Shown here in pieces: positions 8,323 through 33,903 of a DNA stretch of 38,769 nucleotides. Every line of letters starts with the position of its first letter. Position 1 is the stretch's first letter. Made by a program: the position numbers and the translations under genes. The stretch covers positions 1 to 38,769 of the IMG/VR virus record IMGVR_UViG_3300047392_000227, one strand, 5' to 3'. This DNA is from a virus. Under the pieces are notes generated by a model. It was not told the DNA's origin, made no database searches, and was given only the letters and a program-made list of their open reading frames with translations.

Positions 8323-8941
8323 ACTCTATCCCTCTATAGCAAACAACACCTTGTGTGGTATTTGCTATAGCGTAGCCTGCGGCCAACATTAAAGGAATAG
8401 CAGTTCCGCATTTGCCGCCCCAGCCTGTGGGGGAATTAACATCTTGGTAAGTGTCATCAATTAAAATAAGACTCTGGTGTGCCATATACGGCAAGCAATA
8501 TAGCGTTTGTAGCCTATGCTCTTCCATACTGTTTTCATTGTTCATAACAACACCACGAGCCGCATAAGCCGCAATTTGATCGTGTAGCCATTGGTACTGT
8601 AAATTGACAGGATCAATCCAATCGAAGTTGTCTAGGTACAGTACCACAATCTGTTTGCCCAGAGTTGGCAACACATCCCTGCACCAAGCATGACCAGTTT
8701 CAACAGTATGAAATTTAGTGTTACCTACACCGCCAAATGCTGTGTTATTGGTAAAGTGTGTTAGTGCTTCGTCTGTTACGTCGATAGTATGGAAATCTGC
8801 GCCCCGAGCCTGTGACCAATCTCTAAAGTATGCAGTGCTGCCTTCTCCGCGTTCGCTACCAATTTCTACAACACATTTAGAATTATCTACTTGTAATCCT
8901 TGAAACTGGTCGTTTAACATTTTATAAGGTGACATGCCCAT
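8309..8941 (-). CDS. Class I SAM-dependent methyltransferase-like protein
   Basis: 210-residue protein with a Rossmann-type start: KCVVEIGSERGEGSTAYF (SAM motif I), then DFHTIDVTDEAL (motif II acidic end) and VVLYLDNFDWIDP. The later IDDTYQD and GWGGKCGTAIPLML segments resemble small-molecule methyltransferases of the Methyltransf_24/CmcI type. It may methylate a sugar or glycan. Three start codons are possible (8941, 8935, 8920); 8920 lies right after the upstream stop (TAAAATG) and would keep the whole fold. Confidence 0.7.
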   Translation of the reverse strand: MGMSPYKMLNDQFQGLQVDNSKCVVEIGSERGEGSTAYFRDWSQARGADFHTIDVTDEALTHFTNNTAFGGVGNTKFHTVETGHAWCRDVLPTLGKQIVVLYLDNFDWIDPVNLQYQWLHDQIAAYAARGVVMNNENSMEEHRLQTLYCLPYMAHQSLILIDDTYQDVNSPTGWGGKCGTAIPLMLAAGYAIANTTQGVVCYRGIEFKYL

Positions 8942-10019: not shown

Positions 10020-10020
10020 G

Positions 10021-16722: not shown

Positions 16723-19700
16723 TATTTTGGCTCCCAATATCTACCTGCGCCAAAGAACATGTTGGCACGTGAGTTTTCGAATGGACTGTACCATTTGCCG
16801 CTTTTTGTTTTGAACAGGCCAAGTTCTTCTGCTTTAGCAGTTTGATCAGCTGGTACATTATAAAAGTAGTAGCCTTTTTTAACAGGTGCCTTTTTATAGT
16901 AAGAACGTTCTTGTTCTGGCTTGTCCCAACCTTCATCGTTAGCACCACCGTCTAATTGATAAGCTAAACTTTGACGCTTGCCCATACCTGCTACACTTGA
17001 ATCATAATCACGTTGGTAAGCATCGCGTCGATCGTAACGACTTTCTTTTTGCGCTGTTGGCATAACTGGTTTTGATAACATTCCTAATGCTTTATTCAAG
17101 TTATTGATACCTGCTTTCCATGTGGCTCCAGCCGCATGTGCCGCTGTTAATGCCGCACCCCAAATTGGGTTAAGAGTCATCATAAATGCTTGCTCAATCT
17201 TAATATCACTTTGTTGTTTCTCAACATCAACTTCCTTTTGCATTACTTCAACTCGGGCCTTTGTTTCAGCGTCAATGACAGCAAGTTGTTTTGCTTTTTC
17301 TGTATTGATCTGATCCAATCTGTTTTGACGCTCGCCTGCATTGTCAATGTTGTCTAGCTGTTTGATTTGAATTTGATAATCAGCTTCTAGTTTAGCTTTC
17401 TTATATTCACCTTCAGCTGAGGCATTGATAACTGCAATTTCATGTTTGTACCCAGCTTGAGCCATTTCTAACTCATGCTTGCGAATATCTTCACGTTCTT
17501 TGCGGTCTTCAATTTCGCGTTCAATTTGAGTCAAGCGTTCTTTAGCATCAAGTTCTAAATCCTGCTTGATTTTAATAATAGCCAGACGTGCTTCCATATC
17601 AAGTTCCAGCAACTCTTTCTGGTCTGCTTGATCTAATTCAGCTTTGTTTAATAAGGCTTGTACAGATAGTTCGTGCTGTAGTGGAGCATTTTCTAAATCC
17701 AACTGATTTTGAATGTTAGTAAGATTTTGTTGATGCACACCAGCAGCCTGTTGTTTTACGGCAGCTCGCATTTCATCCATGGTCGGGGCTTGTTGCATCA
17801 AATTCCAAATAGCTTGAACATCACGAGCTAATGCGTGCCCTTCACTACTATTGATGAATATTGCTTGGCTTGGATTTTCAGTGTATGGTAGTACAAACTC
17901 TTTTAAATTTTGACCAATTATGCCGCTATCCTTAGCGGCTAGTGCCATCATTTTTTTCCAATTAAGACCCGAGCCGCTTGATGGCTCTCCGTCATTTTTT
18001 AACAACATGTTATAAGGAACTAACCAATCTTCAGCAGCTTCTTTCATGATAGATACTTGGCCACTGGCATCTGCTGGCTTTGTTGATAGTTCATGATATG
18101 GATTATGAATTTCAAGAGACTTCAATGGTCCAATTGTGATAACAGGGCTACCATTGTTTTGTGCAATCATTCGTGGACTTGAAACGCTGACCATGGCCAT
18201 ATCGTTGCTCATTAACTTTAGAACCTTGGCTTTAGTAGGTACCATTTTGGCACCAGGTACTCTGTAACCAATAATGTCGCCGGCTTTTAATTCAGCCGGT
18301 GCTTCTGGCGCAGTGGGCGCAGTGTATGGTGGCACTGGTGGGCGAGGAGTTGTTGGTAAATTAGCAGTTGGCTTGGCAGGCGGATTACGTCTAGCGTCCA
18401 TTCGTGCTCTAACATCATCCAATAGACCTTCAGTTAATCCAGCTTCGGCCATTGCTGATTGCATAATACTTGCCGCACGACTTGCCGCTTGTTCACGTAC
18501 ACCGCCACCAAAGTAAGCAGCGATCTCTTTAAAGCCTTCTTCGGTGTTCAGTGTGTCTTGTAACAATGCTTTGCTTTCTGGTTTCATCTTTTCAAACTTT
18601 GCTAGCAATTGGCGTGCAATGTTTGGCGCAATTACTGTTACAGTGCCATCAGCTAACTTTACTTTGGTTGGCTTTTCGTAGTCACTGGCTTTACGAATCT
18701 GCATAATGATATTCTGATCAGCAGTAGCTTGGTCGCCTGGAGTAGCTTCATCGCCTTCAGCTTCAATAACTGGATCAACTCCGCTCTCTTGATCTAAACG
18801 ATCTGTAATCCATTCATAAGGATCGCCATCACGAGCTTTCTTTACACCATATGGCATCTCATCAAAGTAGTATTCGTACAAGGCATCAAAGAAGTCTTGA
18901 TTTTCATCAATGTCGCCACCTGCACGGAACTTGGCGTAGTCTGCACTGTACTTGCTTAAGATACCTTCTAGGGTATCGCTGCCTTCGTTTACCGTTTCAC
19001 CAAATGCTTCTGGTGGATTGCTATCTAACATTTGTTCGACTTGCTTGACCCAACCACTTACATCGCTGGATCCAATTTCTTCTACATCGCCTACATAGTC
19101 TGCAACTTCGTCAATGGCTTGCATTACCAATACTGGGCCGTACTTGCTCAACAAGTCTGAGCGTTGCAATAAAATTCTACGTGTGATAGCACCTGCCACT
19201 GGATTGTCTTCGTTTTCTTTAATTTGTACGCCGGCTTGCTGTAGTTGCTTAACGGCATTGGCATCTAAGTTAACACTGCCGTCATCTTCTTGTTCTGTAT
19301 CTAATTCAATTTGGCCGTTCTTGTTGAACGTGGCGTTTGTTGTTTTACCTGTTGGGGCAAACTGTGTGCGACCTGTACCACCTGAAGTGCCTGTGCTTGG
19401 GATAGTACCCACTGTGGCATTTGGATCACCTTCCGCTACAGCTTGCTTACTTTCACCAATTTGCTTAACTGTGGCAGCGGCAGCTTTTTGTTGTTCCGGT
19501 GGTAATGTAGCAATTTTACTGCTTGTATATTGTGCAACTTTATCATCACCGCCCAACTTCTCTGCGGCAGCGTCCCATAGCTTTTCTACACCCTGCATGC
19601 CTAGCTTGGCAGCACTATAAGCACCGTATGCGGCCATTGGGATTCCCAGCAGTGGTCCCAAGATAGAAACGATAGCTGGAGCGCCTGCGGCTGCTACTCC

Positions 19701-20738
19701 ACCTAATGCTAAACCAGCGGCTGCTTTAACCAAACCTGGTGCAGCCTCATCCATCTTAGCATAATCTTCGTGACCAATGTAAAAGTCAGTTTCGGGATCG
19801 TAGTACTTGCCTTCTTTTGGATCGTAGTAAACAACCTTACCACTGCGAGTACTGAATGGGCCTTCTAAGCCTGGACGTTCTTGATAACGCTCATTGTCAA
19901 TACCGCGTGTGACTGTATAGCCTTCTGCTACTTTTTTTGCAGGAAAACGTGCAACTGTCTTACCGTCAACTGTAACAAATCCAGTTGGAGCAGATCTAGC
20001 TGTTGCAATTTTGCCATTTGGATATTTCTTTTCCATTGAAGCGACCCAAGCGTCACGAGCTGCATATTGGTCTTTGGATCCACCAATGCTTTCTGTTACA
20101 CCGGTCACTGCATGTGGATGACGCACATACAATACGTTGCCGCCAGCTGTGATATAGTGTGGTAAACGTTGGCTATCGCCGGGCATGTATTCTGTGCCTG
20201 ACACTGGAATGCGTCTAACTTTGTTGTCAATACCGTAGATGATGTATGACTTGCCGTCTTGGCTCAAACGACTTTGGTCATAAATCACATGCTGTTGACC
20301 ACCACCTGCACGACTACGAGCATCTGCAATTCGTTGCTTACGGATTTGATCTTGCTCAGCGTTCCATACTTGACGCTCTGTACTACGACCATATTCACGT
20401 TGGCGCATTGCTTCTTTATAGTTGGGACTAAAGATATCGGCCATGTGCTGGCCAACTGAATGATTTAGACCTGGATAGTTAGGGTTAGCACCACCTTGTG
20501 CTTGAGCTGAATGTGCGCCACCCAATGCAATACCCGCTGCCATTGCCGCTGGCACAATCTTTTTAGCAACATGATGCAACATATCTTTTGCACCTTCGCT
20601 TAATTCGCCTTCTACGATTTGAACAGTGTCAAATGGGTCTTTGTACTTTTTAACCTGTTCCAATACTACGCTTTCATGTAAGCGGCTGGTAATTTGCTTG
20701 ACAACTTTACCTTCTTTGATTAATCTAATGCGAATCAT
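16722..20738 (-). CDS. Giant virion-type protein, 1338 aa
   Basis: Largest gene of the window. Hydrophobic Ala/Gly segments lie near residues 50-80 (KIVPAAMAAGIALGGAHS) and 335-380 (AAAGLALGGVAAAG). The middle has acidic linkers with repeated VAEG, VTES, VNEG and LTEG sites, a block MPYGVKKARDGDPYEWITDR common in T4-like phages, a Pro-rich link near 800, and a long charged coiled coil at about 1020-1190. Linked LxE-type sites suggest cutting by a gp21-like prohead protease. It may be an injected inner-capsid protein. Ribosome site AAGGGAC precedes the ATG. Confidence 0.75.
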   Translation of the reverse strand: MIRIRLIKEGKVVKQITSRLHESVVLEQVKKYKDPFDTVQIVEGELSEGAKDMLHHVAKKIVPAAMAAGIALGGAHSAQAQGGANPNYPGLNHSVGQHMADIFSPNYKEAMRQREYGRSTERQVWNAEQDQIRKQRIADARSRAGGGQQHVIYDQSRLSQDGKSYIIYGIDNKVRRIPVSGTEYMPGDSQRLPHYITAGGNVLYVRHPHAVTGVTESIGGSKDQYAARDAWVASMEKKYPNGKIATARSAPTGFVTVDGKTVARFPAKKVAEGYTVTRGIDNERYQERPGLEGPFSTRSGKVVYYDPKEGKYYDPETDFYIGHEDYAKMDEAAPGLVKAAAGLALGGVAAAGAPAIVSILGPLLGIPMAAYGAYSAAKLGMQGVEKLWDAAAEKLGGDDKVAQYTSSKIATLPPEQQKAAAATVKQIGESKQAVAEGDPNATVGTIPSTGTSGGTGRTQFAPTGKTTNATFNKNGQIELDTEQEDDGSVNLDANAVKQLQQAGVQIKENEDNPVAGAITRRILLQRSDLLSKYGPVLVMQAIDEVADYVGDVEEIGSSDVSGWVKQVEQMLDSNPPEAFGETVNEGSDTLEGILSKYSADYAKFRAGGDIDENQDFFDALYEYYFDEMPYGVKKARDGDPYEWITDRLDQESGVDPVIEAEGDEATPGDQATADQNIIMQIRKASDYEKPTKVKLADGTVTVIAPNIARQLLAKFEKMKPESKALLQDTLNTEEGFKEIAAYFGGGVREQAASRAASIMQSAMAEAGLTEGLLDDVRARMDARRNPPAKPTANLPTTPRPPVPPYTAPTAPEAPAELKAGDIIGYRVPGAKMVPTKAKVLKLMSNDMAMVSVSSPRMIAQNNGSPVITIGPLKSLEIHNPYHELSTKPADASGQVSIMKEAAEDWLVPYNMLLKNDGEPSSGSGLNWKKMMALAAKDSGIIGQNLKEFVLPYTENPSQAIFINSSEGHALARDVQAIWNLMQQAPTMDEMRAAVKQQAAGVHQQNLTNIQNQLDLENAPLQHELSVQALLNKAELDQADQKELLELDMEARLAIIKIKQDLELDAKERLTQIEREIEDRKEREDIRKHELEMAQAGYKHEIAVINASAEGEYKKAKLEADYQIQIKQLDNIDNAGERQNRLDQINTEKAKQLAVIDAETKARVEVMQKEVDVEKQQSDIKIEQAFMMTLNPIWGAALTAAHAAGATWKAGINNLNKALGMLSKPVMPTAQKESRYDRRDAYQRDYDSSVAGMGKRQSLAYQLDGGANDEGWDKPEQERSYYKKAPVKKGYYFYNVPADQTAKAEELGLFKTKSGKWYSPFENSRANMFFGAGRYWEPK

Positions 20739-20749: not shown

Positions 20750-21631
20750 TTATGCTTTATCGTGAATTTCTGGCTGATCATTCGTACCGCCAATTATTTT
20801 GTATGTCAGGCCCATTTGTTTAACCTTGGCCAACATTTCTTTGTATTCTTCTTCGCCCTGCGCTACTAACACAGTGTCGCTATCGTCTTGTCCAAATTCG
20901 TGCGGATCAATTTTGTTATTGTTCCAGTACGTACCAATTTTGTACCAATCCAAATCACCCGGTGTATTTACTACAATGGCATACTTTGGATTAGATAGTA
21001 TGTCTTTGACATAACCCTGTGGATCTGGCTCTTTGGTCAAGCCTTCCATCAAGCGATAATTTTGTGCGGCTTGCTCTACTACGCGAATACATTCGCGAAT
21101 AAAGTTGGTGTCTTCGTCTGTGATGCCACGACTGCCACGACCACCTTTACGTCTTAATCTTGCCAGCTCATTGTAAGCCGCAACAATAGTATTGATTGTA
21201 TTTGTTAGTTGTTTGATATTTTCAGCACTGCGACGGAACGCTCCGCCATGCTCAATGCTTAAATCTTGTGCCAATGCGGCTGCTTCACGACGAGCTTTGT
21301 CACGTAAAGCCTTCAAGCTGTAACGACCAGCGCCACCTAGTACTGCAACTTCTGTATCGCTCATTGGATTTTCACGGTCTAGTCTATAGATAACATTGTC
21401 GTGATTTAACACGTGAGCTTCGTCTACACCTTGTTGCTCAAACACACCTTGTCCAATTCCCTTGGGACCTGGCACATATTTTTGACCAACTGCGGCACGT
21501 GCGTTTTTGCGTTTTTCTTTATTGTTCTTACCACGTACAAATAGAGGATAGGCCACTGTAGCGATGTTGCTAGACGTGGTTGCCACCACAGCTTCGCCGT
21601 CTTCCACTATAATTAATTCACGTAGTTTCAT
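20750..21631 (-). CDS. Virion-type protein with capsid-targeting-like leader, 293 aa
   Basis: 293-residue protein starting MKLRELIIVEDGE. The leader fits the M-K-x-R-E-L-x-x-x-E form discussed for this window. The middle is basic and helical (SLKALRDKARREAAALAQDL, RLRRKGGRGSRG). The end WYKIGTYWNNNKIDPHEFGQ followed by EEEYKEMLAKVKQMG is, from memory, a block seen in T4-like structural proteins. Function unknown; probably packaged with the capsid. It is the first gene of the leftward transcript from the divergent late promoter pair. Confidence 0.7.
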   Translation of the reverse strand: MKLRELIIVEDGEAVVATTSSNIATVAYPLFVRGKNNKEKRKNARAAVGQKYVPGPKGIGQGVFEQQGVDEAHVLNHDNVIYRLDRENPMSDTEVAVLGGAGRYSLKALRDKARREAAALAQDLSIEHGGAFRRSAENIKQLTNTINTIVAAYNELARLRRKGGRGSRGITDEDTNFIRECIRVVEQAAQNYRLMEGLTKEPDPQGYVKDILSNPKYAIVVNTPGDLDWYKIGTYWNNNKIDPHEFGQDDSDTVLVAQGEEEYKEMLAKVKQMGLTYKIIGGTNDQPEIHDKA

Positions 21632-22922: not shown

Positions 22923-23582
22923 TTAAACTCCTAATAAATGAATATTGTTTTTGATGTGTTCCCACACACCTTCAGGGTTGCCGTCGGCAAATACCAATTG
23001 GCAACTGATAGTTATCCTGAATCCGGGTCCTTGAATCACAGTGTGCGGTTGGTTAGTACGTAATATAGCACTGGGTACATTGGACTTGGTTTCAAATACT
23101 GGGCCTGGTAAGTCGTGCCATTGAATACGGCCAGCCGCTAAATCTTCTACACAATTGGCCATTACATTGACTCGTGCTTGTGAATATTCTGTAGCTGGAT
23201 ATTCTTTTATAGTAATTGGCAAGTCTTGACTATCCCACCATTGGATCGTGCCCGGTGATTCTGCTAGCTCATAGTAACTTAGTCGTGCTTCTAACAGTGT
23301 TGGCTTGCGATTATAATACACCCCGTCGGCATGGATAGCATACGAAGTTGAATCAGCATCTCCGGCAAATAAAGTAACTGCTCGTGTACGTAATCCCAAT
23401 AGCTCTACCAGACTATTAGTCTGAGCAATAGTCTTTGGGAACGCTTCGGTTACTGTACCCACATTAACCAGACCGTGACCAGTGCCCACATACTTGTGTT
23501 GTAAAGCAGGCAACTGATCTTTAATGAATGCTTGTTTTTCTACAGGATCAATTGTTAATGCCAACGGATAGAAATAGGTCAT
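22923..23582 (-). CDS. Possible 2OG-Fe(II) oxygenase-like protein, 219 aa
   Basis: 219-residue protein of uncertain family. AIHADGVYYNRKP gives an H-x-D pair and PHTVIQGPGFRITISCQL a distal His followed by an Arg, the pattern of double-stranded beta-helix 2-oxoglutarate oxygenases or cupins. The spacing is reasonable but sequence similarity alone is weak. The start overlaps the stop of the adenylate cyclase as ATGA, which implies a shared message. Confidence 0.5.
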   Translation of the reverse strand: MTYFYPLALTIDPVEKQAFIKDQLPALQHKYVGTGHGLVNVGTVTEAFPKTIAQTNSLVELLGLRTRAVTLFAGDADSTSYAIHADGVYYNRKPTLLEARLSYYELAESPGTIQWWDSQDLPITIKEYPATEYSQARVNVMANCVEDLAAGRIQWHDLPGPVFETKSNVPSAILRTNQPHTVIQGPGFRITISCQLVFADGNPEGVWEHIKNNIHLLGV

Positions 23583-25630
23583 TTGCTTGTGGCACGATAG
23601 GTACCGTCCCAGTTGGCTGGCAAGCCTTCACGCATACGCTCCAACATATTTTCATAGTACTGCTTTAACTCGTTGTCCAAGGCAATTAACTTTTCGCACT
23701 GTTTTATAGCACGAGTCCAATCACCACGATAGTATGCAGTCAAGTATGTGTTGTGTAATGTTGTATTGGTTTCGCCTAAGGTGTAGATTTTAACGCCTAC
23801 ATTCTTACCCTTAACTGCAATACAATCTAATTCTACCGTCGGGTGTTCAGCTTGAACAAGCTCAGCAGTTCGCTGTCCCAGTACAATTCGTACGCCATAA
23901 GGCTTACTTTGTCCCTCAAGTCGGCTCGCAAGATTGACGCCATCGCCCAGGCAAGTATAGTCAAAACGCTGATCAGATCCCATGTTACCGACCACAACAA
24001 CTGCACTATTAATCCCAAGACCCATACCAAAAGGCGGGATACCTTCTGCTGTAATTTCCCGATTAAACTCATCCAAACTCCTCATCATTTCTAATGCTGT
24101 TTTAACTGCTTGATGTGCATGACGCGGCTCGTCAACTGGTGCGTTCCAAAATGCCATTTGTGCGTCGCCAATGTACTTGTCAAGCGTACCGTTATTGTCA
24201 ATGATCTTTCGTGTCATTGCTGTCATATAACGATTCATGATACGAGTAAGTCCTTGTACGTCCTTACCGTAGTGTTCACTAATGGTAGTAAAGCCACGAA
24301 CGTCTGTAAACATGATTGATAGTTCACGTTCATCACCACCCAGTTGAAGCATCTCTGGGTTCCGTTGCAACTTGGCAACAAGAGCCGGACTCAGATATGT
24401 ACCAAACTGCTTTTTAACTTGTTGCTTTTGTTTAAACTCAACTACAAAGCGGGCAAACAACGCATGACCGTACAATACAATGGCCGCAAAGGCCAAGTAG
24501 TAAATGTCCCATAATTGACTATAAGTTTGCCAAGCATAGAAACTGCCGCCCACTACTGATCCTAGTGTGACAAACAATGCCGCACCTACTGCCCAAAACG
24601 GCAGTCGAGTCATAACGAAAATTAGTAGAAACGCTATCAGCACAATTGCTAATAGCTCAATACTTCTTGCAAATGCAGGGCGTACTGGACTGTCACCATC
24701 CAGCAATGTTTGTACTGTTTGTGCCTGAATATCATGTGCCCACGCTCCGCCCTGTGGCGTGGCAATAATACTACCCAATCCCTCTACAGCCAGTCCCAGT
24801 ATTACAACCCGGCCTTTGAGATCTACTTTTTTCTTGCTCAACTCAGACAGTTCGTAACGTGAGAAGTTCTTGTTCCAACGCAACCAAACTCGAGCATGTT
24901 CATCTGTGGTAATAACTGGCTGTCCAGCAATGCGGACTTTTTCAATTCCTGCTGAACTCATTTTGACTTGATAGCTGGTTTGTCCTGTAGCAACACGAAG
25001 TGCTTCAATGGGCAAACTGGGATACACTTGATCGCCTACCCCAACTACTAACGGCATGCGTCGAACAACACCGTCTACTTCGGGTGCAACAACACTGGTA
25101 CCTACACCCGAAGCCGCATCAGCCAAGGGCTTGTAAGGACTTAACGCACCAGGCCAACTAAATGTCCAATCCAATGGGTCACCACCTATAACAGCAACAC
25201 CACGACGAACAGCGTCAGGCCGTTTATTTTGTGTAGTAGGTGCTTGAGCAATAACGGAGTTGGTATGACTTAGTGTATTAACTAAATCTCGATCGCCGCC
25301 TAGTCGATCTGCTTCACTCATGATAATGGGCACAACAACTGCTGACGCTCCCAGTTCTTGAACTCGATCGATTGCTCGTGCCAGGTCCTTGCGAGGCCAC
25401 GGCCACTGTCCTAGGCGTTCTATACTGGCTTCGCCTATATCAACAATGACAACACGATCAGAATCAACTGGCGTGTCTGTAGCAAGTAATGTATCAAAGC
25501 CTTTGAGCTGTATGCTTTCAACAGGCTTAGGGTTGGAGATTTTTAATGCAACAAGTACCACTGCCGTAACAGCTACCCATGCAATACTCCATGGTCCGGG
25601 AATAAAGTTCTTCATACTGTAATTTAGCAT
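23579..25630 (-). CDS. CHASE2-domain class III adenylate cyclase
   Basis: 683 residues. TM1 (13-30), an outer CHASE2 sensor (about 40-320), two or three TM spans (322-341, 344-362, 373-393), a linker, and a class III cyclase domain from about 432. Metal-binding Asp443 (FTDVRGFT) and Asp489 (YIGDAQMAFW), base-selecting Lys485 and Thr559, and Asn566/Arg570 (GDGVNLASR) are all present, which favours ATP over GTP. It should make cAMP in the host inner membrane on a periplasmic cue. The start may be Met6 at 25615, since a promoter overlaps the first codons. CHASE2 cyclases are usually bacterial, so recent transfer is likely. Confidence 0.92.
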   Translation of the reverse strand: MLNYSMKNFIPGPWSIAWVAVTAVVLVALKISNPKPVESIQLKGFDTLLATDTPVDSDRVVIVDIGEASIERLGQWPWPRKDLARAIDRVQELGASAVVVPIIMSEADRLGGDRDLVNTLSHTNSVIAQAPTTQNKRPDAVRRGVAVIGGDPLDWTFSWPGALSPYKPLADAASGVGTSVVAPEVDGVVRRMPLVVGVGDQVYPSLPIEALRVATGQTSYQVKMSSAGIEKVRIAGQPVITTDEHARVWLRWNKNFSRYELSELSKKKVDLKGRVVILGLAVEGLGSIIATPQGGAWAHDIQAQTVQTLLDGDSPVRPAFARSIELLAIVLIAFLLIFVMTRLPFWAVGAALFVTLGSVVGGSFYAWQTYSQLWDIYYLAFAAIVLYGHALFARFVVEFKQKQQVKKQFGTYLSPALVAKLQRNPEMLQLGGDERELSIMFTDVRGFTTISEHYGKDVQGLTRIMNRYMTAMTRKIIDNNGTLDKYIGDAQMAFWNAPVDEPRHAHQAVKTALEMMRSLDEFNREITAEGIPPFGMGLGINSAVVVVGNMGSDQRFDYTCLGDGVNLASRLEGQSKPYGVRIVLGQRTAELVQAEHPTVELDCIAVKGKNVGVKIYTLGETNTTLHNTYLTAYYRGDWTRAIKQCEKLIALDNELKQYYENMLERMREGLPANWDGTYRATSK

Positions 25631-25654
25631 ACTTCTGACAGAAAGTCAAGTCAA
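25626..25654 (-). promoter_or_regulatory. Tandem sigma70-like promoter for the cyclase gene
   Basis: Minus strand TTGACT (25649-25654), 17 bases, TATGCT (25626-25631). A second TTGACT (25644-25649) has TAAATT 17 bases on (25621-25626). The -10 boxes overlap the first codons of the longer frame, which favours Met6 as start and a very short leader. Confidence 0.45.
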
Positions 25655-25722
25655 ATAAAGGACCTGGATCAATCACAGCTACTCATTAAGAACCATAGAC
25701 AATATCATAGTCTTCGTGTTAA

Positions 25723-25771
25723 CCATATTTTTGCGGCACATAATTTTTACGGTGTATCCATATTTTTGCGG
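25723..25771. repeat. Three 14-base iterons
   Basis: CCATATTTTTGCGG at 25723-25736 and, identical, at 25758-25771, with a variant CATAATTTTTACGG at 25739-25752 (three differences). Starts are 16 and 19 bases apart. They lie 70-140 bases upstream of the cyclase promoter and could be operator or replication-type iterons. Confidence 0.7.
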
Positions 25772-25814
25772 GTTAAAGTTAGTGAGTATTGTAGTTTTGA
25801 TTAACACGAAAAAT

Positions 25815-26250
25815 TTGATCTCAAGATGAATAGTTTTGCTAGATTGGGAGGCCATACGACACCCTGTCGAGGATGCCGGATGAGATGTTTGCTTAGACGA
25901 TCAGCCACACTGAGACAATAGGTGTTTGGGTTTCCGCGTCTCTGGGCTCTGTACCTTACCCTACCTATTACGATTTTTAAAACAACTTCGGTGTCATATG
26001 TTGTTATGGACGCATTGGAACTAAGTCAGTTCGCACTGCACTCAACCTGTATACTGGTATTCAAACGTAAGACCCATAGGGGCAACATTTTAAGGCATCC
26101 GTACTAAGACGGGTAGTGAATACAAGTCCGTGGCGTACTCACAGAATTGGGCATCGGCACACACTTAGATGCTTACCCAGCAGAATATTAACCGGCCTGC
26201 TAACCTTTTGTTACGCTTGATTATTGTGTGTTACTTACGACTGTAAGATC
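25815..26250. ncRNA. Candidate structured RNA in the gene-free stretch
   Basis: No credible gene lies in 25631-26273. The stretch is dense in complementary segments: ATCTCA (25818) with TGAGAT (25881) enclosing GGCCAT/ATGCC (25850, 25873) and CGACA-CCC-TGTCG (25857-25869). Others are AATAGGT/ACCTATT (25917, 25963), which crosses GAGAC/GTCTC (25912, 25938) as a possible pseudoknot, AACAAC/GTTGTT (25981, 26000), GTGAaTAC/GTAcTCAC (26116, 26135), GCATC/GATGC (26151, 26168) and CTTAC/GTAAG (26234, 26243). Strand and ends are unknown. Short stems occur by chance, so this is a proposal. Large ornate RNAs such as GOLLD and ROOL are known from phages. Confidence 0.35.
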
Positions 26251-26273
26251 TGGACCAGTCTTCAAAGATGACG

Positions 26274-26690
26274 TTATTGGGCAGGATCGTTTGGAGCCGC
26301 TAGTACAAAGTGCTCACCAGACTGCTTCATTGTCCATGTAGGCAGCAGTCGCCTGACCATACGGGCATATAAGCCCTGACGCGAATCTTCTTTGGCAGAA
26401 AATGTCAACACTTGTATTCGGTCTTGGTACTTGGCCAAAAACGCTCGCATAATGTCAACTACAGTGCCCATGACTTCAGCTGAATTACCAGTACCAGTTA
26501 AGCCAAACTTTTGTGCTCGACTCAACTTGGAACCATGCTGTTTGAATTCAGCTTCCCATTCACCATCAGCCCCGTAAGCATGAAACATGTAAGGCACTTC
26601 ACCTACATGAAAAGTAGCAATGGCTTCTTCGCTGCCAGTAAACTCCCACTGCCACTTTTTACCAGGTTCAAACAATTCTCTTATTAGCAT
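26274..26690 (-). CDS. Phage protein with capsid-targeting-like leader, 138 aa
   Basis: 138 residues starting MLIRELFEPGKKWQWEF. The first eight residues resemble the capsid-targeting peptide of T4 Alt (M-E-L-I-T-E-L-F-D-E from memory). The rest has strands (ATFHVGEVPYMFHAYG) and an end LTFSAKEDSRQGLYARMVRRLLP that recalls a common phage family of unknown role. The ATG at 26690 lies one base after the upstream stop; the frame to 26762 would be inside that gene and is rejected. Confidence 0.7.
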   Translation of the reverse strand: MLIRELFEPGKKWQWEFTGSEEAIATFHVGEVPYMFHAYGADGEWEAEFKQHGSKLSRAQKFGLTGTGNSAEVMGTVVDIMRAFLAKYQDRIQVLTFSAKEDSRQGLYARMVRRLLPTWTMKQSGEHFVLAAPNDPAQ

Positions 26691-26691
26691 A

Positions 26692-27600
26692 TTACCACTT
26701 ACGGCATGACCAGTATCTAGCAGAAGTACGAGGTCCAGGATTATCACAGTTATGACGAGCACGGAAGCTACGACGAGCAGCAGGGTTAGACTTTCTGATC
26801 TTCATATCTGGATCGCCAAAATTTACTTTTTTAACGTTGCCAGTTGAAGGATCTTTTACGTACACTTTGAACTTTTTAACATCGCCTTGCATGGGTTTGC
26901 CCAGTGGCACACTACGTCCTTGGTATTCGGCTTCGTCTAATTGCTCGTCTTCGTTGAACCATAACTCACCGTATGCTTCAAAAAACTCGTCACCGTCATA
27001 AGTTTCTTCTAATTCTTCTTTGACGCAGTTATTGACTCTGACGCCACCTTTGATCTTAGTGCCATCCTTTTTATAACCCGCCCAGCACTTGGGGTCTAAA
27101 CGAGTCTTTTCCTCCGCCACACCTTGCTCTTTCAACTTGTCTTGAATCTTTTTATAGCGTTGGAAGTTGGCATCTTTATCCACATCAGTTCTGCCAAATT
27201 TTTCAGCATCCATCTTCTTATCAATCTCACGCTTGGCATATCCAGGAACAACTTTACGGAGAGTCTGTGGCAAGCCTTCCGCTACATCTTGTTTAACGCT
27301 TTCGATAAACTTGCTAGTAATGCTCTGCGGCAATCGCAAATCATACTTCATTAACCAACGTTGAATATAACGTGGGTTTGCATCTGCTACAGATCTTTTA
27401 GTGCCATCTGGTGCTTGTACCACAACAGTGATGACACCATTGCGATCTTCTGCACTTAGCAATCTGCTGGCATTTTCATTTAGTTTGCCTTCCGCTACCT
27501 TTCTACTTTGCTTGGGGCCTTGACGGCACTTCCACTTTTTATCTGTGGAGCAGTAGTACTCTCCGTGAGCGCAACCTTCTTTTAAATCTTGTATTTTCAT
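26692..27600 (-). CDS. Virion-type protein with RARH-C-PG-YWSC-W ending, 302 aa
   Basis: 302 residues. Leader MKIQDLKEGCAHGEYYCS, then repeated LxE-type sites (VAEGKLNE, VAEGLPQTL, VAEEKTR, LDEAEY). The ending SFRARHNCDNPGPRTSARYW followed by SCRKW holds two Cys and a His in a compact, probably metal-binding domain that I recognise from T4-like phage structural proteins. Function unknown. It follows the amidoligase gene by four bases. Confidence 0.72.
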   Translation of the reverse strand: MKIQDLKEGCAHGEYYCSTDKKWKCRQGPKQSRKVAEGKLNENASRLLSAEDRNGVITVVVQAPDGTKRSVADANPRYIQRWLMKYDLRLPQSITSKFIESVKQDVAEGLPQTLRKVVPGYAKREIDKKMDAEKFGRTDVDKDANFQRYKKIQDKLKEQGVAEEKTRLDPKCWAGYKKDGTKIKGGVRVNNCVKEELEETYDGDEFFEAYGELWFNEDEQLDEAEYQGRSVPLGKPMQGDVKKFKVYVKDPSTGNVKKVNFGDPDMKIRKSNPAARRSFRARHNCDNPGPRTSARYWSCRKW

Positions 27601-27604
27601 AGTA

Positions 27605-29584
27605 TTATCTCATTTCTGGAACAACGGATACTTCGGTGCCGTGCCCATATCCGTTTTGTGTTAGCCATTGAATAGCAAGACGGTTGGCATCACTTTGATT
27701 ATTGCCAATGCCACCAAAAGTATGTAGCACTCGATCACTGCCGTCTTTAATTAGCCATTGACCAGTCCACTCACCACCGCCCGCCGGTGTCGCAGTTGAT
27801 GCTGGTGCAGTAATCTTGCCGTACATAAAGTCTCCAGGATTCTGTGCTTTGAAGTCTTGTAGATACTTAAACGCTTCTTCAGAACTGGCAGCATAGTAGT
27901 TCTTAACAATCTCATTAGTATCACGATTTTTGATATACCAATTTGGTTCTTTTTGTTCTGGTTGTGGCTTCTTACCCTGACGCTCTAATTGTGCTTGCTT
28001 AATAAAGCTCTTTAGTGCTGCCTTGGGCATTTGACCTGCGGCATATTGTGCAAAGTAAGCCAAAGTATCGTTGTGAGTCTTTGGTTGTAAAATTGCATAC
28101 AACTTTTTCAAGTATTCTTGTTTGTACTTTTCCGGATCCACTGCGGCATCTAATGCCACAACAAAGCGAAGCAATGTATTTGTAATTGAACCAGGATCGC
28201 TTGCATACTCCCCTAACCAATCACCGCCAGGACTACGAAACTCAATGTAGCCACTCTTGGTGTTGATACTAGTGTACTTGTTAGTAACACCTGAGTGAAT
28301 AGCCTTACTGGCCAAGCTGTCGAGGCCACTCTTCATTTTTTCTAATAACGCACCCGCATCTTCGGGACGTTGCGATACACGGTTTTTAATTTCGTTCATT
28401 GCACTTTTGCAATAGGTATTGCCAGCTCGGCCAAACTTGTCTAGGATATAGTTGTCGCCCATCAACAATGCTAACTTGACATAGTCTAACTTGCCCATGT
28501 CTCCCGACCAACCTTCGACGCTGACGTTAATGTGTAAGCCAGTGGATTGGTTTGTGTAGCAACCATATCGCCCGGCCCACTTGGCAACTTTATCTAAGTC
28601 ACTTAATAATTCAGCAACGGGCAATGCCGGGCTTACAAATTCTAAACCACCATCACCACTGTTATCTGGGTCTAAGCTGCCGTCTGGCTCAACAACATAG
28701 TGAGAGTTGTTGGCATCTGGACGCTCTACACTGCCTGAATGATAAGAGCCACTAGCCTTTACTGTACGGCCAACTGCCTCGGCAAAATCTTCGGCTACTT
28801 GTTCTGCACTGACTTCACCACCATATGGACTTGTCCAATAAGGCCATTGGATGTCAAACTCGCTTGAGATATCGCTCATGTAGCGATAGCGAGCATCCTC
28901 TAAGAAGTCACCTTCATCACGCGAACCTTGGTTTTCTTCACGATATTCTTCCAAGGCCGAATCATACATGTTGCCTTGATTTTCCCACTCGCTTGTGACC
29001 AACTCTTCAAGTTCCTCATCAGCGGCAGCTTTGGCTTCCATGTAATGATCATACGCTTCGTCTGCTTCACGTGCCGCTTGTTGATCGCTTAATTTACTAT
29101 AACGTGGAGCACTGTTGCCAGCTGCCATGGCAGCATCAACTGCTTCTTCGTCTAGTCCTTGTGATTCTAAGTGTTCGCGAATTTTATCTTCTTCAATCCA
29201 CTCGTTGTTGTTAATCCAATCACGTAGATAGTCTTCGCCGTCACTGCCCCAATCGTTATCAATCTTTTCGCTTTCCCACTCGTAATACGCTTCTTGTAGC
29301 TTTTCAATTAATCTGCGAACATCGCTACGGCTATTGTAGTCACCATCATTGAAGAATTCTTCAATATCAGAAAAGCTACGAGTACGCTGATCCTCGTCAT
29401 AATCGGGCTCCATGTCCCCGCCCTCGTTGTTTTCAGCATTTGGCACAATCATTTCAAATTCCATGCCGGCTCGGGCATTGATTTGGCTAGCCAACTGCTT
29501 TAGGCTACTGGGGCTCATGTTAATTTCGGCTAGGACTTGTTCATCTAGCACTGCGGGTTGGGGGTTGACGTCACGTAATTTCAT
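27605..29584 (-). CDS. Putative amidoligase (COOH-NH2 ligase), virion-type
   Basis: 659 residues. The amidoligase core is split by a long acidic insertion: GMEFEMIVPNAE near residue 40, VEPDGSLDPDN near 300, GLEFVSPALPVAELL near 316, and STGLHINVSVEGW near 350. These match the glutamine-synthetase-like amidoligase family, which forms amide bonds on peptides or cell-wall parts. The leader MKLRDVNPQPAVLDEQVLAE-like start carries LxE-type sites. The last 120 residues (EPNWYIKNRDTNEIV, WTGQWLIKDGSDRVLHTF) are two small similar modules. A TATAAATA box lies just upstream. Confidence 0.8.
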   Translation of the reverse strand: MKLRDVNPQPAVLDEQVLAEINMSPSSLKQLASQINARAGMEFEMIVPNAENNEGGDMEPDYDEDQRTRSFSDIEEFFNDGDYNSRSDVRRLIEKLQEAYYEWESEKIDNDWGSDGEDYLRDWINNNEWIEEDKIREHLESQGLDEEAVDAAMAAGNSAPRYSKLSDQQAAREADEAYDHYMEAKAAADEELEELVTSEWENQGNMYDSALEEYREENQGSRDEGDFLEDARYRYMSDISSEFDIQWPYWTSPYGGEVSAEQVAEDFAEAVGRTVKASGSYHSGSVERPDANNSHYVVEPDGSLDPDNSGDGGLEFVSPALPVAELLSDLDKVAKWAGRYGCYTNQSTGLHINVSVEGWSGDMGKLDYVKLALLMGDNYILDKFGRAGNTYCKSAMNEIKNRVSQRPEDAGALLEKMKSGLDSLASKAIHSGVTNKYTSINTKSGYIEFRSPGGDWLGEYASDPGSITNTLLRFVVALDAAVDPEKYKQEYLKKLYAILQPKTHNDTLAYFAQYAAGQMPKAALKSFIKQAQLERQGKKPQPEQKEPNWYIKNRDTNEIVKNYYAASSEEAFKYLQDFKAQNPGDFMYGKITAPASTATPAGGGEWTGQWLIKDGSDRVLHTFGGIGNNQSDANRLAIQWLTQNGYGHGTEVSVVPEMR

Positions 29585-29591
29585 AGTACTA

Positions 29592-29599
29592 TATTTATA
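29592..29599 (-). promoter_or_regulatory. T4 late promoter, exact TATAAATA
   Basis: Minus-strand TATAAATA, the full T4 late consensus, seven bases before the amidoligase ATG at 29584. It marks the border between the curli locus and the virion-type genes. Confidence 0.6.
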
Positions 29600-30520
29600 C
29601 TATTGACCTTGCTGAACTTGTATAGCGGCACACCCGCCTGCTGTAGCACAATTATGGTTAATACTGTAAAACTGTTGAGCTGATCCAGCTTGGCTTAAAC
29701 TTAGTGCAGTTGGGGCTCCACTGAGAGCAATACTGGCCATATGAGATCCGCTGCCTTGCTGTAGCACATCTACTTGTTTGTTTCCGTTAAGCAACTTGAT
29801 TTCAGCATAATGACTACCGCTATCCTTTTGTTGCAAATTAACACTGTTTGAACTGTCGGATATGGACACAAAGGCACCTTTTGAGCCACCGGTACTTTGT
29901 TGAGTTATTGTGGCCAAGTTATTGTTGCCTGTGATTTGTAAGTCTGTGTAATTGACAATTGTGGCAGAATTTCCGCTTTGTGTGATGCTTACTGTGTTAT
30001 TGGATCCGTTGCTGTCATAACTGACTTGATTGTTCTTGGTACCTGACTGCTCTACTGTTATTTGATTGCCATTGCCAATTTGGCTGATATAAACTTGGCT
30101 ATCATTGGTAGTACGATTATAAAATGTTTGAGCTTTATTGACATTAACAGAATCCGGGTTGAATGGTGCCGACAAACCCCCGCAACATAACGGTGGCGGC
30201 GGACTGTTAAAGCTGTACCACTGTCCCGAGTCAGGCAAGCTGTTTGTATAAAGAAACAGGTAATCAGCTGAAGGCATAGTGGCATGGTCTATTGTCAATG
30301 TAAAAGTGGTACAGCCTGAAGACACGCAAGTTGCTTTCCACCCTGCAAGATTACCAAGTCCCTGGGCCACCAGTACATCAAATTCGTTTGGGTTATTGCC
30401 ACGATATACAAATATGTAATCACTGCCTTGGCCGCTAACATTCATTGCGGCACCAACAGATGTAGCCTGTGCTTGCAAGCCGGTAATTAAAAATACAATA
30501 GCAATGATTAATAATTTCAT
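29600..30520 (-). CDS. Secreted curlin-repeat protein with N-terminal domain
   Basis: 306 residues. Signal peptide MKLLIIAIVFLITGLQAQA. Residues 20-135 form a separate domain with Cys pairs (CVSSGC, LCCGG). From about 140 come curlin-type strands: VYISQIGNGNQITVEQSG, NTVSITQSGNSATIV, NLATITQQS, SVNLQQKDSG, HYAEIKLLNGN and QVDVLQQGSG. These follow the I-x-Q-x-G-x-x-N-x-x-x-x-Q pattern of CsgA/CsgB. It ends CAAIQVQQGQ. It could be a nucleator (CsgB role) or a decorated minor subunit. The start overlaps the FecR gene as ATGA. Confidence 0.85.
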   Translation of the reverse strand: MKLLIIAIVFLITGLQAQATSVGAAMNVSGQGSDYIFVYRGNNPNEFDVLVAQGLGNLAGWKATCVSSGCTTFTLTIDHATMPSADYLFLYTNSLPDSGQWYSFNSPPPPLCCGGLSAPFNPDSVNVNKAQTFYNRTTNDSQVYISQIGNGNQITVEQSGTKNNQVSYDSNGSNNTVSITQSGNSATIVNYTDLQITGNNNLATITQQSTGGSKGAFVSISDSSNSVNLQQKDSGSHYAEIKLLNGNKQVDVLQQGSGSHMASIALSGAPTALSLSQAGSAQQFYSINHNCATAGGCAAIQVQQGQ

Positions 30521-31629
30521 GGCAATCTCTGTCTCAAAACACCAGCATTTTGTTTGATATAAACATTGTTGCCGCCAGCACTTCCATCGCCAATTACCAC
30601 AGTGGCCGGAGAGTCATCATGTACTATTGTGATGGTTGTATTTGAACTATACCCTTGTGTTTTGACTTCGGCATAGTGTTCGTTTGTGGTTTCTCGATAT
30701 GCAACGCCTTTGCCACGACTTTGCAAGTCTACTTCGTTTGGTTGATCCCATCTGATGCATACAGTTCTATTTGGATTACAAGCAGGAGTACCTGCTGCCT
30801 CAAGCAACGCCAATAGTCTTGCATCATCAATGGCCTGCTGTGCTTCTCGAACACGTTGAGCCAATCGTCTTTGTGCTTCAAATTCAATCTCTGAATCTTC
30901 TTCTTCCTTTTTGGTCTTGCCAGTGGTATAACGAATAGCTTTGCTGATTTCGCCAGGCGGGGTAAGAATCATCAAGTTATTAATCTTGGCTTCAACAGTG
31001 TTGACAATAGCAGGGTTAGTTGGCATCATGTTGGCACTGATAACATACGTGGCTTGAAACGCTTCAGTTAGTTCAACTTTACCTGCTGAAGTTTCAACAG
31101 TAATAGCACCCACACGGCAACGCTGTTCTTCTAGCTCGTATGTTTTGATATCTTTATCATCTTTGCAGGATGGCAACAAGATAATTAAACTTTGGCCAGT
31201 TTCATCTACTGTCATTGAAAAGTCTGTGCCACGAACCGCAATGTTTGCAGTTGGAGTTGTGATTGCCACACGCTGTGGATTTTGTTTGGCTATTTGACCT
31301 GAAGCATAACGCACTGTGCCCATGCCAACTCGCATGGCCAACTTACCAGCATCACTTGCCTTGGGATCAAACACAAAGTCGTCAATGACTAGACGACTAT
31401 TTTCTGTTACTTTGACTCGGGTATCGTCAATGAATGTGATGTTGCTTTCACACTTTTTGGTAATGTAAGTGTCCAGGCTTTCAACTGCTGAACCTTTACT
31501 ACCTGCCAGTTCTTTTTTGTTGCGTTCAATGGAACATGCAGTGCCTTTGGTATCGGCAACTGTACCGATACTGCCAGCGCCCGCTGTTGTTACTGTTGCA
31601 GCCAACAATAAGGCAAGCACTAAACGCAT
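30517..31629 (-). CDS. FecR-domain secreted protein with curlin-like tail
   Basis: 370 residues. Signal peptide MRLVLALLLAATVTTAGAG. Residues 35-170 are a FecR-like domain: DDTRVKVTENSRLVIDDFVF, ITTPTANIAVRGTDFSM. A charged coiled segment near 240-275 (EFEAQRRLAQRVREAQQAID) follows. The tail HYAEVKTQGYSSNTTITIV and NNVYIKQNAG looks like degenerate curlin strands and is close to HYAEIKL of the next gene. No TM anchor is seen, unlike sigma-regulating FecR. It may anchor or cap the fibre. Six bases after the preceding stop, with an AAGGTAA ribosome site. Confidence 0.82.
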   Translation of the reverse strand: MRLVLALLLAATVTTAGAGSIGTVADTKGTACSIERNKKELAGSKGSAVESLDTYITKKCESNITFIDDTRVKVTENSRLVIDDFVFDPKASDAGKLAMRVGMGTVRYASGQIAKQNPQRVAITTPTANIAVRGTDFSMTVDETGQSLIILLPSCKDDKDIKTYELEEQRCRVGAITVETSAGKVELTEAFQATYVISANMMPTNPAIVNTVEAKINNLMILTPPGEISKAIRYTTGKTKKEEEDSEIEFEAQRRLAQRVREAQQAIDDARLLALLEAAGTPACNPNRTVCIRWDQPNEVDLQSRGKGVAYRETTNEHYAEVKTQGYSSNTTITIVHDDSPATVVIGDGSAGGNNVYIKQNAGVLRQRLP

Positions 31630-31634: not shown

Positions 31635-32423
31635 TTACCTTGGAATAGCTGAAACTGGATTAACGATTGCAGCCGAACTACTTCTAACAGTAACAGTATT
31701 GTTACTGCCATTGGTTGCAATGTTGATAGTAGTATCATTGAACCCTTGTTGTTGCGTAGTAATTGAGTTAAAGTCACCAGTAGTGTTCATTGTTAGCTTA
31801 TGACCATTGGCACCTGCTGTATCAATTTGCTGGCTGTTGAACACGTTGCTGTTTCCCACTACAGTATTTGTCACTGTACCATTGCTACTCTTTAACTCAT
31901 TGGTGACTTGGTTGGAGTTTCCTGTAATTGTATTTGTACTATTGATGTTGTTACCAACCACAGTTTGCACAACTGTATTGTTATCGCCTGTGACAGTTTC
32001 AGCTACATTGGATTGAGTTGTGTTTGTATTTGCATCACCCATTGTCAAATTGGTTTGATTGCTATTTCCGCTTACTGTTGATGTATAGGTATTTTGACTG
32101 CCGCGAATATTGTACTGTGCTGAGTTATCGTTGCCGGTTTGTGTAATACTAATGGTGTTACTGCTACCGTTAATGGTGCCGTAGTTTGTTGTACCTGGTG
32201 CGACTGGCGTCAATGTAGTAATACCAGTGCCGGCAACAGACGTTGTATTTGCTGTTCCGCCAACGGTATTGGTACCACCAACTTGTTGTATGGTAATTGT
32301 ATTGGTGTTACCAATTTGTTCAATGTAAACACTGTTTGGACCTGTTGGGCCCGCTGCTTGTGCAACCACTGAAGATAATGCAATCAATGTTGCAACCGTG
32401 CTTTTTGTAAATTTACGGTTCAT
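31635..32423 (-). CDS. Major curlin-like amyloid subunit (CsgA-like)
   Basis: 262 residues. Signal peptide MNRKFTKSTVATLIALSSVVAQA. The mature part is very rich in Asn, Thr, Gln, Gly and Ser and holds about ten G-N/D-x-N turns. The clearest curlin units are SVYIEQIGNTNTITIQQVGG and NTISITQTGNDNSAQY. Later units (GNSNQTN, GDNNTVVQTVVGNN, GNSNQVTNEL, GSNNTVTV) are degenerate but keep the period. Only one stretch without turns is seen near residues 55-85. It is expected to leave through CsgG and form fibres. No strong ribosome site is adjacent to the ATG. Confidence 0.87.
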   Translation of the reverse strand: MNRKFTKSTVATLIALSSVVAQAAGPTGPNSVYIEQIGNTNTITIQQVGGTNTVGGTANTTSVAGTGITTLTPVAPGTTNYGTINGSSNTISITQTGNDNSAQYNIRGSQNTYTSTVSGNSNQTNLTMGDANTNTTQSNVAETVTGDNNTVVQTVVGNNINSTNTITGNSNQVTNELKSSNGTVTNTVVGNSNVFNSQQIDTAGANGHKLTMNTTGDFNSITTQQQGFNDTTINIATNGSNNTVTVRSSSAAIVNPVSAIPR

Positions 32424-32571: not shown

Positions 32572-33405
32572 TTACTTTTTCTCTTCCACAAACGCCCAAT
32601 GGCCTTTGCGAGCCCCTTCTTTGATAGTATTAACTACTGCGGCTTGAACTGCAACATCCACGGCTTTGTTGATACTTTCGTTGATACTTCCGCCCATTTC
32701 GCCCTCTAATGCTCTTGCATTTGCTCCAAGCGGAGTACCATCATCTATAAATCTCAATAACGTTACCTTATCCATATAACTTAAAACAGTCTTAGTAACA
32801 GTGACTGTGGTCAAAATTTCTCCGGTGCTTACGCTAACAGTTCTTAAAGTAACTGTGACTGTATCGCTTTGGTATTGAGTACTTGCACCAATACCAAATA
32901 TACGCATACCACTGCCACCTGTGATTGTATTACTGTCATATCCAACAATACCACCTTCAACAATTACACCAGCAAACAACATTGGTGGTAACGGTGTAGC
33001 TTCCTTACCTTGATATTGTTCGCGCATGGAACGAATCATTTGACGTTCTTTGATCAAGTTTTCTAAACCAACACGTTCTACAACACGGAACCAACGAGCA
33101 TTGCCAACTTCCTGCAATGCCTTGATCAAATAGTTTTCAGCACCTTGCGTTACTGCTGAACTTAAAGAAGCAATGTTTGGCAAACTCTTGCGCTGGCCAG
33201 TCATGTCCTTGAATCCATATACTGCAATTGTAATTGGGCCACCAGCCGGCGGGGACAACTTATTTTCATCTTTTTTAAGATATTTGCTGGACTCAATTTT
33301 GGGAGTATCAAACTGTTCGCCTGTGGCCAGTTCTCGCAATGCACTGCTTGTTGCACATCCACCCAATAAACTTACCACTGCCAAGGATACTAATAATCGT
33401 TTCAT
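32572..33405 (-). CDS. csgG: CsgG curli secretion pore lipoprotein
   Basis: 277 residues, the same length as E. coli CsgG. The lipoprotein signal ends LLGGC with Cys17 as lipid site. Family blocks follow in order: ITIAVYGFKDMTGQRK, ARWFRVVERVGLENLIKERQ, GVIVEGGIVGYDSN, GIGASTQYQSDTVTV, VSTGEILTTVTVTKTVLSY and a C-terminal helix. CsgG forms a nine-fold outer-membrane pore that passes unfolded curlin. The constriction segment reads KSLPNIASLSSAV where E. coli has KPYPASNFSTAV (from memory), so the Tyr and Phe of the narrowing are replaced. AAGGAT precedes the ATG; ten bases after csgF. Confidence 0.95.
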   Translation of the reverse strand: MKRLLVSLAVVSLLGGCATSSALRELATGEQFDTPKIESSKYLKKDENKLSPPAGGPITIAVYGFKDMTGQRKSLPNIASLSSAVTQGAENYLIKALQEVGNARWFRVVERVGLENLIKERQMIRSMREQYQGKEATPLPPMLFAGVIVEGGIVGYDSNTITGGSGMRIFGIGASTQYQSDTVTVTLRTVSVSTGEILTTVTVTKTVLSYMDKVTLLRFIDDGTPLGANARALEGEMGGSINESINKAVDVAVQAAVVNTIKEGARKGHWAFVEEKK

Positions 33406-33414: not shown

Positions 33415-33903
33415 TTAAAATGCGAATGTGCCACTTGGCACTTTCATTGTGGTAGTTTGTGCAGGGTTGGTTAGATTGGTAATTGTAATAATAATCATAC
33501 CAGTGTCACTACCAGTGCCCAATTTCCATGTGACTGAATTACCAGCCAAATCTGGGATACTACCGCATACTGCGCCAGCGGTTGCTACAGTGCAAGTGGG
33601 CGCATCAGTTGCACCAAATAAACTGTCTGTTAGTTGCTTGGCCAACTGTGCATAAATTCTGCTTTGTAAGTTTGCTACAAATTGTGCTTGTGGAGTATTG
33701 GCCGCATCACGTTCGGCTTGAGACTTTAAGGCATCTGCTTTGGCAGTATTCTTTTCACGTTGCTGATCTTCCAATTGCTTTATTGTTAGAACGTGAGAAC
33801 TATAACCAATTCCAGAAAAACTTGGACTATTAAATGAATGTGAAATCTCGGCCCCTACTACTAATGTTGGGCAAAGCACAGCTAAAGCAATTAGTTTTTT
33901 CAT
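33415..33903 (-). CDS. csgF: CsgF curli assembly factor
   Basis: 162 residues. Signal peptide MKKLIALAVLCPTLVVGA. The mature start EISHSFNSPSFSGIGY keeps the F-x-N-P/S-x-F block that in E. coli CsgF inserts into the CsgG pore. A helical middle (LEDQQREKNTAKADALKSQ, FVANLQSRIYAQLAKQL) and a beta end (MIIITITNLTNPAQTTTM) fit the family. Two Cys in the C-terminal part are an addition I do not recall in E. coli. CsgF holds the nucleator at the cell surface. First gene of the curli locus; AGGATCAACG precedes the ATG and TATAAT lies just upstream. Confidence 0.88.
   Translation of the reverse strand: MKKLIALAVLCPTLVVGAEISHSFNSPSFSGIGYSSHVLTIKQLEDQQREKNTAKADALKSQAERDAANTPQAQFVANLQSRIYAQLAKQLTDSLFGATDAPTCTVATAGAVCGSIPDLAGNSVTWKLGTGSDTGMIIITITNLTNPAQTTTMKVPSGTFAF

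Follow-up and report, generated by a model that had tools for sequence, protein, structure and literature searches.

A membrane adenylate cyclase with a CHASE2 sensor belonging to the curli-FecR module of a probable large T4-related phage

Introduction

A cluster uniting FecR, adenylate cyclase and curli (type VIII secretion system, T8SS) genes has been described in pelagiphages (Wittmers et al. 2022; PMC9599517). The combination of cyclase, FecR and curli in phages is thus already known and is not novel. The main text of that paper contains no mention of CHASE2 or of the FecR tail described below. A pairing of FecR with CHASE2 is also known in bacteria, namely in S. meliloti, Campylobacterota and Burkholderia (PMC5498481, PMC9239204, PMC5192318). 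The CHASE2 cyclases of S. meliloti are switched by way of NsrA, an outer-membrane barrel (PMC13001267), and a FecR-domain gene, SMc02177, lies near cyaD1 (PMC13001267, PMC5498481). CyaD1 deleted for its CHASE2 domain makes cAMP constitutively, CHASE2 thus restraining its cyclase (PMC5498481).

Here we compare these systems with a locus found in a 38,769-nt stretch of viral DNA, the whole of which is referred to as the window. An earlier note on this DNA had proposed that it encodes a full-length CHASE2 adenylate cyclase.

Results

Cyclase gene and predicted architecture

The gene at the centre of this study is the following:

23579..25630, minus strand: CHASE2 class III adenylate cyclase, 683 aa (ORF, Pfam, catalytic residues, AlphaFold2 model)

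The reading frame is free of internal stops and the plus strand of the same interval is full of them; the earlier note had given the coordinates exactly, leaving the strand unstated. The claim of a full-length phage-borne CHASE2 cyclase is borne out by the intact frame and by two Pfam matches, both above the curated cut-offs: CHASE2 at residues 24-336 (E 4.1e-41) and Guanylate_cyc at residues 436-617 (E 6.9e-19). In an AlphaFold2 model built from 59 phage sequences (mean pLDDT 89.7), a single N-terminal membrane-length helix (13-32) precedes the outer CHASE2 domain, which is followed by three further membrane-length helices (321-340, 345-370 and 376-409); the cyclase domain and a small helical tail come last. 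These four helices, together with the CHASE2 match, agree with the outer sensor domain and membrane spans that had been proposed. The predicted layout (transmembrane helix, periplasmic CHASE2, three transmembrane helices, cytoplasmic cyclase) is that of a CHASE2 receptor cyclase.

Full-length versions of the ORF recur in independent contigs at 94, 91, 91, 87 and 83% identity, and dN/dS values over the protein, computed for close relatives, lie between 0.05 and 0.09, denoting purifying selection. A sequencing frameshift, which the earlier note had named as an outcome fatal to its reading, is ruled out by these two observations. Translation may in fact begin at Met6, five codons after the annotated start: of six close relatives compared, two have GTG as codon 1, and Met6 is conserved in every one.

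Catalytic site and its variants

The metal-binding aspartates (D443 and D489), the purine-recognizing pair (K485/T559) and the transition-state residues (N566 and R570) are all present in the window cyclase, and the six had been correctly numbered beforehand. The nearest adenylate cyclase structures are those of P. aeruginosa CyaB (3r5g) and Spirulina (S. platensis) CyaC (1wc0), at 30-33% identity; comparison of the model with them yields TM-scores of 0.84-0.90 over the domain. K485/T559 corresponds to the adenine-type K/T pair common to CyaB and CyaC, and guanylyl cyclase Cya2 has a Glu at the position of K485. That the window cyclase would make cAMP from ATP is well supported.

Across 154 phage cyclase sequences, D443, K485, D489 and R570 are invariant. 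The pair at positions 559 and 566 is T/N in about 100 sequences, S/N in 7 and D/S in 46-47. The D/S variant (Asp at 559, Ser at 566) arose once and defines one clade, which includes Melnitz. Because this clade has lost the catalytic Asn, Melnitz-type cyclases may have altered activity. The variant loci (L002, which is Melnitz, L027, L053, L079 and about 43 other viral loci) reflect one coordinated change, kept since.

It appears very improbable that the enzyme makes another cyclic nucleotide (cCMP or cUMP, in a Pycsar-like manner) or that it has lost catalysis and serves for sensing only. PADLOC PycC models do match the domain (E 3e-25), and one phage clade carries D559/S566; yet bacterial CHASE2 cyclases match the same PycC model equally or better (91-100 bits versus 87), and in the window the K/T pair and catalytic residues are intact. 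Membership in Pycsar was rejected since the PycC score is non-specific, control cyclases scoring alike, and no effector was found among the neighbours scanned with Pfam.

A curli-FecR module in the window

Upstream of the cyclase, the window contains the following features:

33415..33903, minus strand: CsgF-like curli accessory protein (Pfam CsgF, 5.5e-6)
32572..33405, minus strand: CsgG outer-membrane curli pore with lipobox LLGGC (Pfam CsgG, 6.1e-48)
31635..32423, minus strand: first curlin-like fibre protein, 262 aa (assigned from position and profile family; no Pfam match of its own)
30517..31629, minus strand: FecR-domain protein, 370 aa (Pfam FecR, 3.7e-8; AlphaFold2)
29600..30520, minus strand: second curlin-repeat protein (curlin-2), 306 aa (Pfam Curlin_rpt, 9.4e-6)
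25631..29599, minus strand: 4-kb stretch parting the cyclase from the curli-FecR genes, with an amidoligase and two genes of unknown function
27605-29584, minus strand: amidoligase, inside the 4-kb stretch
26692-27600, minus strand: gene of unknown function, inside the 4-kb stretch
26274-26762, minus strand: gene of unknown function, inside the 4-kb stretch

Reading from 33.9 to 29.6 kb on one strand, the order is CsgF, CsgG, curlin, FecR and curlin-2, with the cyclase last. Of the elements of a canonical curli operon, CsgG, CsgF and curlin subunits are present. The NCBIfam CsgG model also matches the window CsgG (2.3e-52), below its equivalog cut-off. The first curlin sits where the isolated phages HTVC008M and Melnitz have an annotated curlin and belongs to the same profile family. 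No Pfam match to CsgE or CsgD was obtained among the 30 larger or nearby window ORFs, in a partial genome where some 20 small ORFs at 1-6.5 kb lay outside the scan. FecR, placed earlier about 5 kb from the cyclase within a curli locus, lies at a measured 4.9 kb. As for regulatory signals, the window contains no Rfam elements; the T4 late-promoter pattern TATAAATA occurs once against 2.1 expected, a second AT-rich pattern is below chance, and scans for sigma-70 promoters and terminators gave results near chance.

About 510-640 nt of the 4-kb stretch have no listed minus-strand ORF. The cyclase directly follows curlin-2 in HTVC008M and Melnitz, and curlin or FecR in most phage loci, including three (L087, L089, L091) from the same lineage as the window; in two others (L086, L088) only the amidoligase intervenes. 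Because direct succession prevails in these loci, the 4-kb spacing in the window is probably a local insertion.

Conservation of the module across phages

At least 590 IMG/VR stretches encode relatives of the cyclase (two scans; up to 598 confirmed among the matches listed), and the isolated phages HTVC008M and Melnitz encode it as well. CsgF, CsgG, curlin and FecR accompany the cyclase in every one of 76 fetched phage loci having at least 7 kb of sequence upstream of it. In the converse test, FecR and a curlin gene were found in 55 of 55 phage loci retrieved through CsgG with at least 8.5 kb of downstream sequence. The cyclase lies inside the fetched flank in 50 of these and further on in three of the remaining five (L431, L446 and L485, on the same contigs as L005, L088 and L006, respectively), so that it may be absent from two. 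The proposal that cyclase and FecR form one module is upheld by this reciprocal co-occurrence. Moreover, an overlap of 1-4 nt joins the stop codon of FecR or curlin to the cyclase start in many phage loci. Three loci (L053, L062 and L074) have the csg-FecR genes in the orientation opposite to the cyclase, with the CsgF and cyclase starts back to back.

These counts bear on a simpler explanation, in which the cyclase on its own raises host cAMP, shifting catabolite control or surface structures, and the curli genes are merely co-inherited. The catalytic site is intact, bacterial homologues mostly stand apart from curli and in most cases from an adjoining FecR (see below), and the phages have no cAMP receptor, which means that the target must be in the host: a search of 26 phage records, several of them of about 140 kb or more, gave no cNMP-binding domain (PF00027), which a control search detected in 11 of 14 genomes. 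However, such a cyclase would need neither CHASE2 nor FecR, and the cyclase of the phages is never seen without CsgF, CsgG, curlin and FecR (76/76 loci) and often starts within the preceding FecR or curlin gene. We regard this explanation as unlikely. A metallophosphatase was considered as a possible phage phosphodiesterase; 13 of 14 records match, but so broad a domain would equally pick up T4-type gp47 nucleases, which makes these matches uninformative.

A curlin-like tail in the FecR protein

The AlphaFold2 model of the FecR protein (pLDDT 86) comprises an N-terminal hydrophobic helix, the FecR domain, a long helix and a C-terminal beta region. The FecR domain matches the PupR structure 6ovk, and Pfam FecR matches all 59 aligned phage members. 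A FecI/FecR-type role as anti-sigma iron regulator was rejected because the protein has no cytoplasmic anti-sigma part, its FecR domain being preceded by a hydrophobic, export-type helix, and because no sigma factor appears among the window ORFs scanned with Pfam.

The C-terminal beta region (approximately residues 315-361) resembles a curlin unit, and Gln360 is invariant in the C-terminus of the phage proteins. Of the 371 positions of the phage profile, none beyond 268 is covered by a bacterial FecR protein among the matches listed. When compared with the phage curlin profile, the last 70 residues or so of FecR give a probability of 75%, a P of 2.4e-5 and a score of 32.5; the highest score among 20 column shuffles is 14.3, and that among non-overlapping segments of FecR or of the cyclase is 15.2. 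Of 110 phage FecR proteins, 107 have in strict form a C-terminal motif, N/G/S-x-hydrophobic-x-hydrophobic-x-Q. In two more, including that of the window, the motif sits slightly farther in, by a few residues, as judged by eye; one ORF is without it, as are all nine bacterial FecR proteins. In many phage FecR proteins the last two motif glutamines are 21-23 residues apart, which is about one curlin repeat period. The likeness is visible only by profile-profile comparison: none of the phage tails matches Pfam Curlin_rpt at E<=1, and a direct curlin HMM search of phage FecR gave no match at E<=10. Against bacterial curlin units the resemblance is weak (score 13.0, P 0.04). Possibly, the tail is a shared sorting signal instead of a fibre unit.

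The tail is also relevant to the hypotheses published for Melnitz and pelagimyophages (Buchholz et al. 2022; Zaragoza-Solas et al. 2020), in which CsgG and CsgF are repurposed as a pore for lysis timing or for uptake; FecR and the cyclase would then regulate the pore, not fibres. Two GH19 endolysin-like genes, identified with Pfam in the window, would suit such a role. On the other hand, the presence of two curlin-type genes per module and of a curlin-like FecR tail fits fibre export better, and both papers missed the curlins found by Wittmers et al. and in the present analysis. We consider a repurposed pore quite improbable.

Bacterial relatives and origin

In a tree of 68 sequences, of the type that the earlier note had suggested building, the phage cyclases, that of the window included, group in a single clade (SH-aLRT 100) that branches within the CHASE2 cyclases of Alphaproteobacteria. 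A very distant gut-phage cyclase (L004) falls outside this clade. In the nearest bacterial locus, from a marine MAG (L159), genes for a 1317-aa FecR-domain protein, a TolC-type OEP and HlyD lie upstream of the cyclase. The FecR-CHASE2 pair there (2171-11788) adjoins type I secretion genes, and OEP/HlyD genes also adjoin other alphaproteobacterial CHASE2 cyclases.

Full-length cyclase homologues are encoded by 111 of 289 alphaproteobacterial genomes. The notion that bacterial CHASE2 cyclases are often near FecR fits the relatives found first, nearly all of which (L159 and L161-L168) have FecR on the fetched stretch, and the published pairs; it does not extend to a broader alphaproteobacterial sample, where only 3 of 36 cyclase loci have a FecR gene at a distance of 3 kb or less. 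The CHASE2-FecR-curlin gene set that had been expected in bacteria was not found: no csg genes lie near these 36 cyclase loci, and neither FecR nor cyclase lies near four alphaproteobacterial csg loci. CsgG is absent from eight of the nine bacterial relative genomes tested. Because the bacterial relatives have FecR and eight of nine genomes are without CsgG, gene content indicates that the pairing of FecR with CHASE2 is bacterial and older, and its link to curli looks like a phage feature. The CsgG search covered three further genomes, namely those whose contigs bear phage-type cyclases; these contigs (L155, L156 and L157), from bacterial MAGs labelled Flavobacteriaceae and Pirellulales and in two cases also containing curli-FecR genes, are probably misbinned phage contigs.

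Phage lineage and other genes of the window

Most of 50 window proteins compared match a 285-kb contig (G007) in the same order, mainly at 193.7-223.7 kb. The gp23 capsid protein of that contig is 62-64% identical to those of PA5oct, GAP32, CBB and Sinorhizobium phage Phosso. The description of the virus as T4-like cannot be read from the window itself, in whose 38.8 kb gp23 was not found; the collinear contig does have this gene. Since that contig has a gp23 nearest to those of GAP32/CBB/PA5oct-type jumbo phages, the window, as a fragment, probably comes from a large T4-related phage and not from a pelagiphage. Also encoded on the 285-kb contig (L276-L278) are 29 tRNAs and a tmRNA of the permuted type whose tag reads ANDSQFALAA; these might be of use in placing the host.

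Five otherwise unrelated minus-strand proteins in the window share similar N-termini: MRLRELLSE (36613-37836), MKLRDVNPQ (27605-29584), MKIQDLKEG (26692-27600), MKLRELIIVE (20750-21631) and MIRIRLIKEG (16722-20738). These recall T4 capsid-targeting sequences, and the five proteins, which include a GH19 endolysin and the amidoligase, may be packaged in the head and injected with the DNA. A nitronate-monooxygenase-like ORF (7330-8322, plus strand; Pfam NMO 3e-13) lies on the strand opposite to most genes and is kept at 45-89% in related phage contigs. A sugar/lipopolysaccharide-type island (6608-15096, minus strand) encodes a cytidylyltransferase with a mannose-6-phosphate isomerase C-terminal domain, a UDP-glucose dehydrogenase-like protein and a radical SAM-like protein.

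Discussion

We consider it somewhat probable that the cyclase is a working, membrane-bound member of the phage curli (type VIII secretion) module, acting as a curli-coupled cAMP switch gated by FecR. In such a switch, CsgG and CsgF would export curlins during infection; FecR, in the periplasm or at the pore, would report on curlin export or assembly through its curlin-like tail and pass the signal to CHASE2, which would raise or lower cAMP synthesis. Because no CRP-type protein was seen in the phages (0/26 records), cAMP would be read by one of the host. The likely purpose, and the least certain step, would be an adjustment of host physiology or of fibre production to the infection. A more specific version, in which the FecR tail monitors curli and gates CHASE2 so that cAMP reports the status of the amyloid fibres, is put forward tentatively, as a possibility that we hold to be rather doubtful. 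The curli link would then be a phage addition, because the bacterial FecR matches lack the tail. Against the switch speak the dispensability of the SMc02177 protein for signal perception in S. meliloti, the loss of the catalytic Asn in the D/S clade, the weak likeness of the tail to bacterial curlins, the lack of a cNMP-binding protein in the 26 phage records, and the fact that in the window the cyclase no longer adjoins FecR.

With the present data, large T4-related phages join the pelagiphages and methylophages as known carriers of the module. Phage-encoded amyloid export together with a cAMP-making sensor would mean that host surface and signalling are reshaped by several phage lineages. 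The FecR tail makes the connection of fibre to signal concrete and testable, and it offers a way of approaching what the FecR-CHASE2 pair that recurs in bacteria senses.

Comparison with described systems places the locus as follows. P. aeruginosa CyaB and Spirulina CyaC share the class III fold and the K/T pair with the window cyclase, but have different sensor parts and are not phage-encoded. The phage FecR has the periplasmic signalling domain fold of the FecR/PupR anti-sigma regulators (6ovk); unlike them, it has no cytoplasmic anti-sigma part and bears a curlin-like C-terminal region. An exported FecR-domain protein stands beside a CHASE2 sensor, as in the phages, in Campylobacterota (a cyclase) and in the Burkholderia BiofilmReg operon (a CHASE2 histidine kinase), whose outputs and partners differ (PDE and TPR proteins; a response regulator) and which have no curli. 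S. meliloti CyaD1, CyaD2 and CyaK combine CHASE2 with a class III cyclase, as does the window protein, and the system likewise has a FecR-domain gene (SMc02177, near cyaD1), with NsrA as outer-membrane partner; it is described without curli, and its cAMP is read by Clr, of which no phage counterpart was found. Closest of all is the pelagiphage cluster of HTVC008M and Melnitz, which has the same gene order (CsgF, CsgG, curlin, FecR, curlin, cyclase) and cyclases of the same clade, 41-42% identical to that of the window. It differs in that the window and its relatives are collinear with a 285-kb jumbo phage contig, and in the 4 kb that part the window cyclase from the rest. As far as the papers examined show, the assignment of CHASE2, the FecR tail, the catalytic variant restricted to a single clade and the absence of a phage cAMP receptor had not been described. 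What is new is a member of the module from a different lineage of larger genomes, beyond the pelagiphages.
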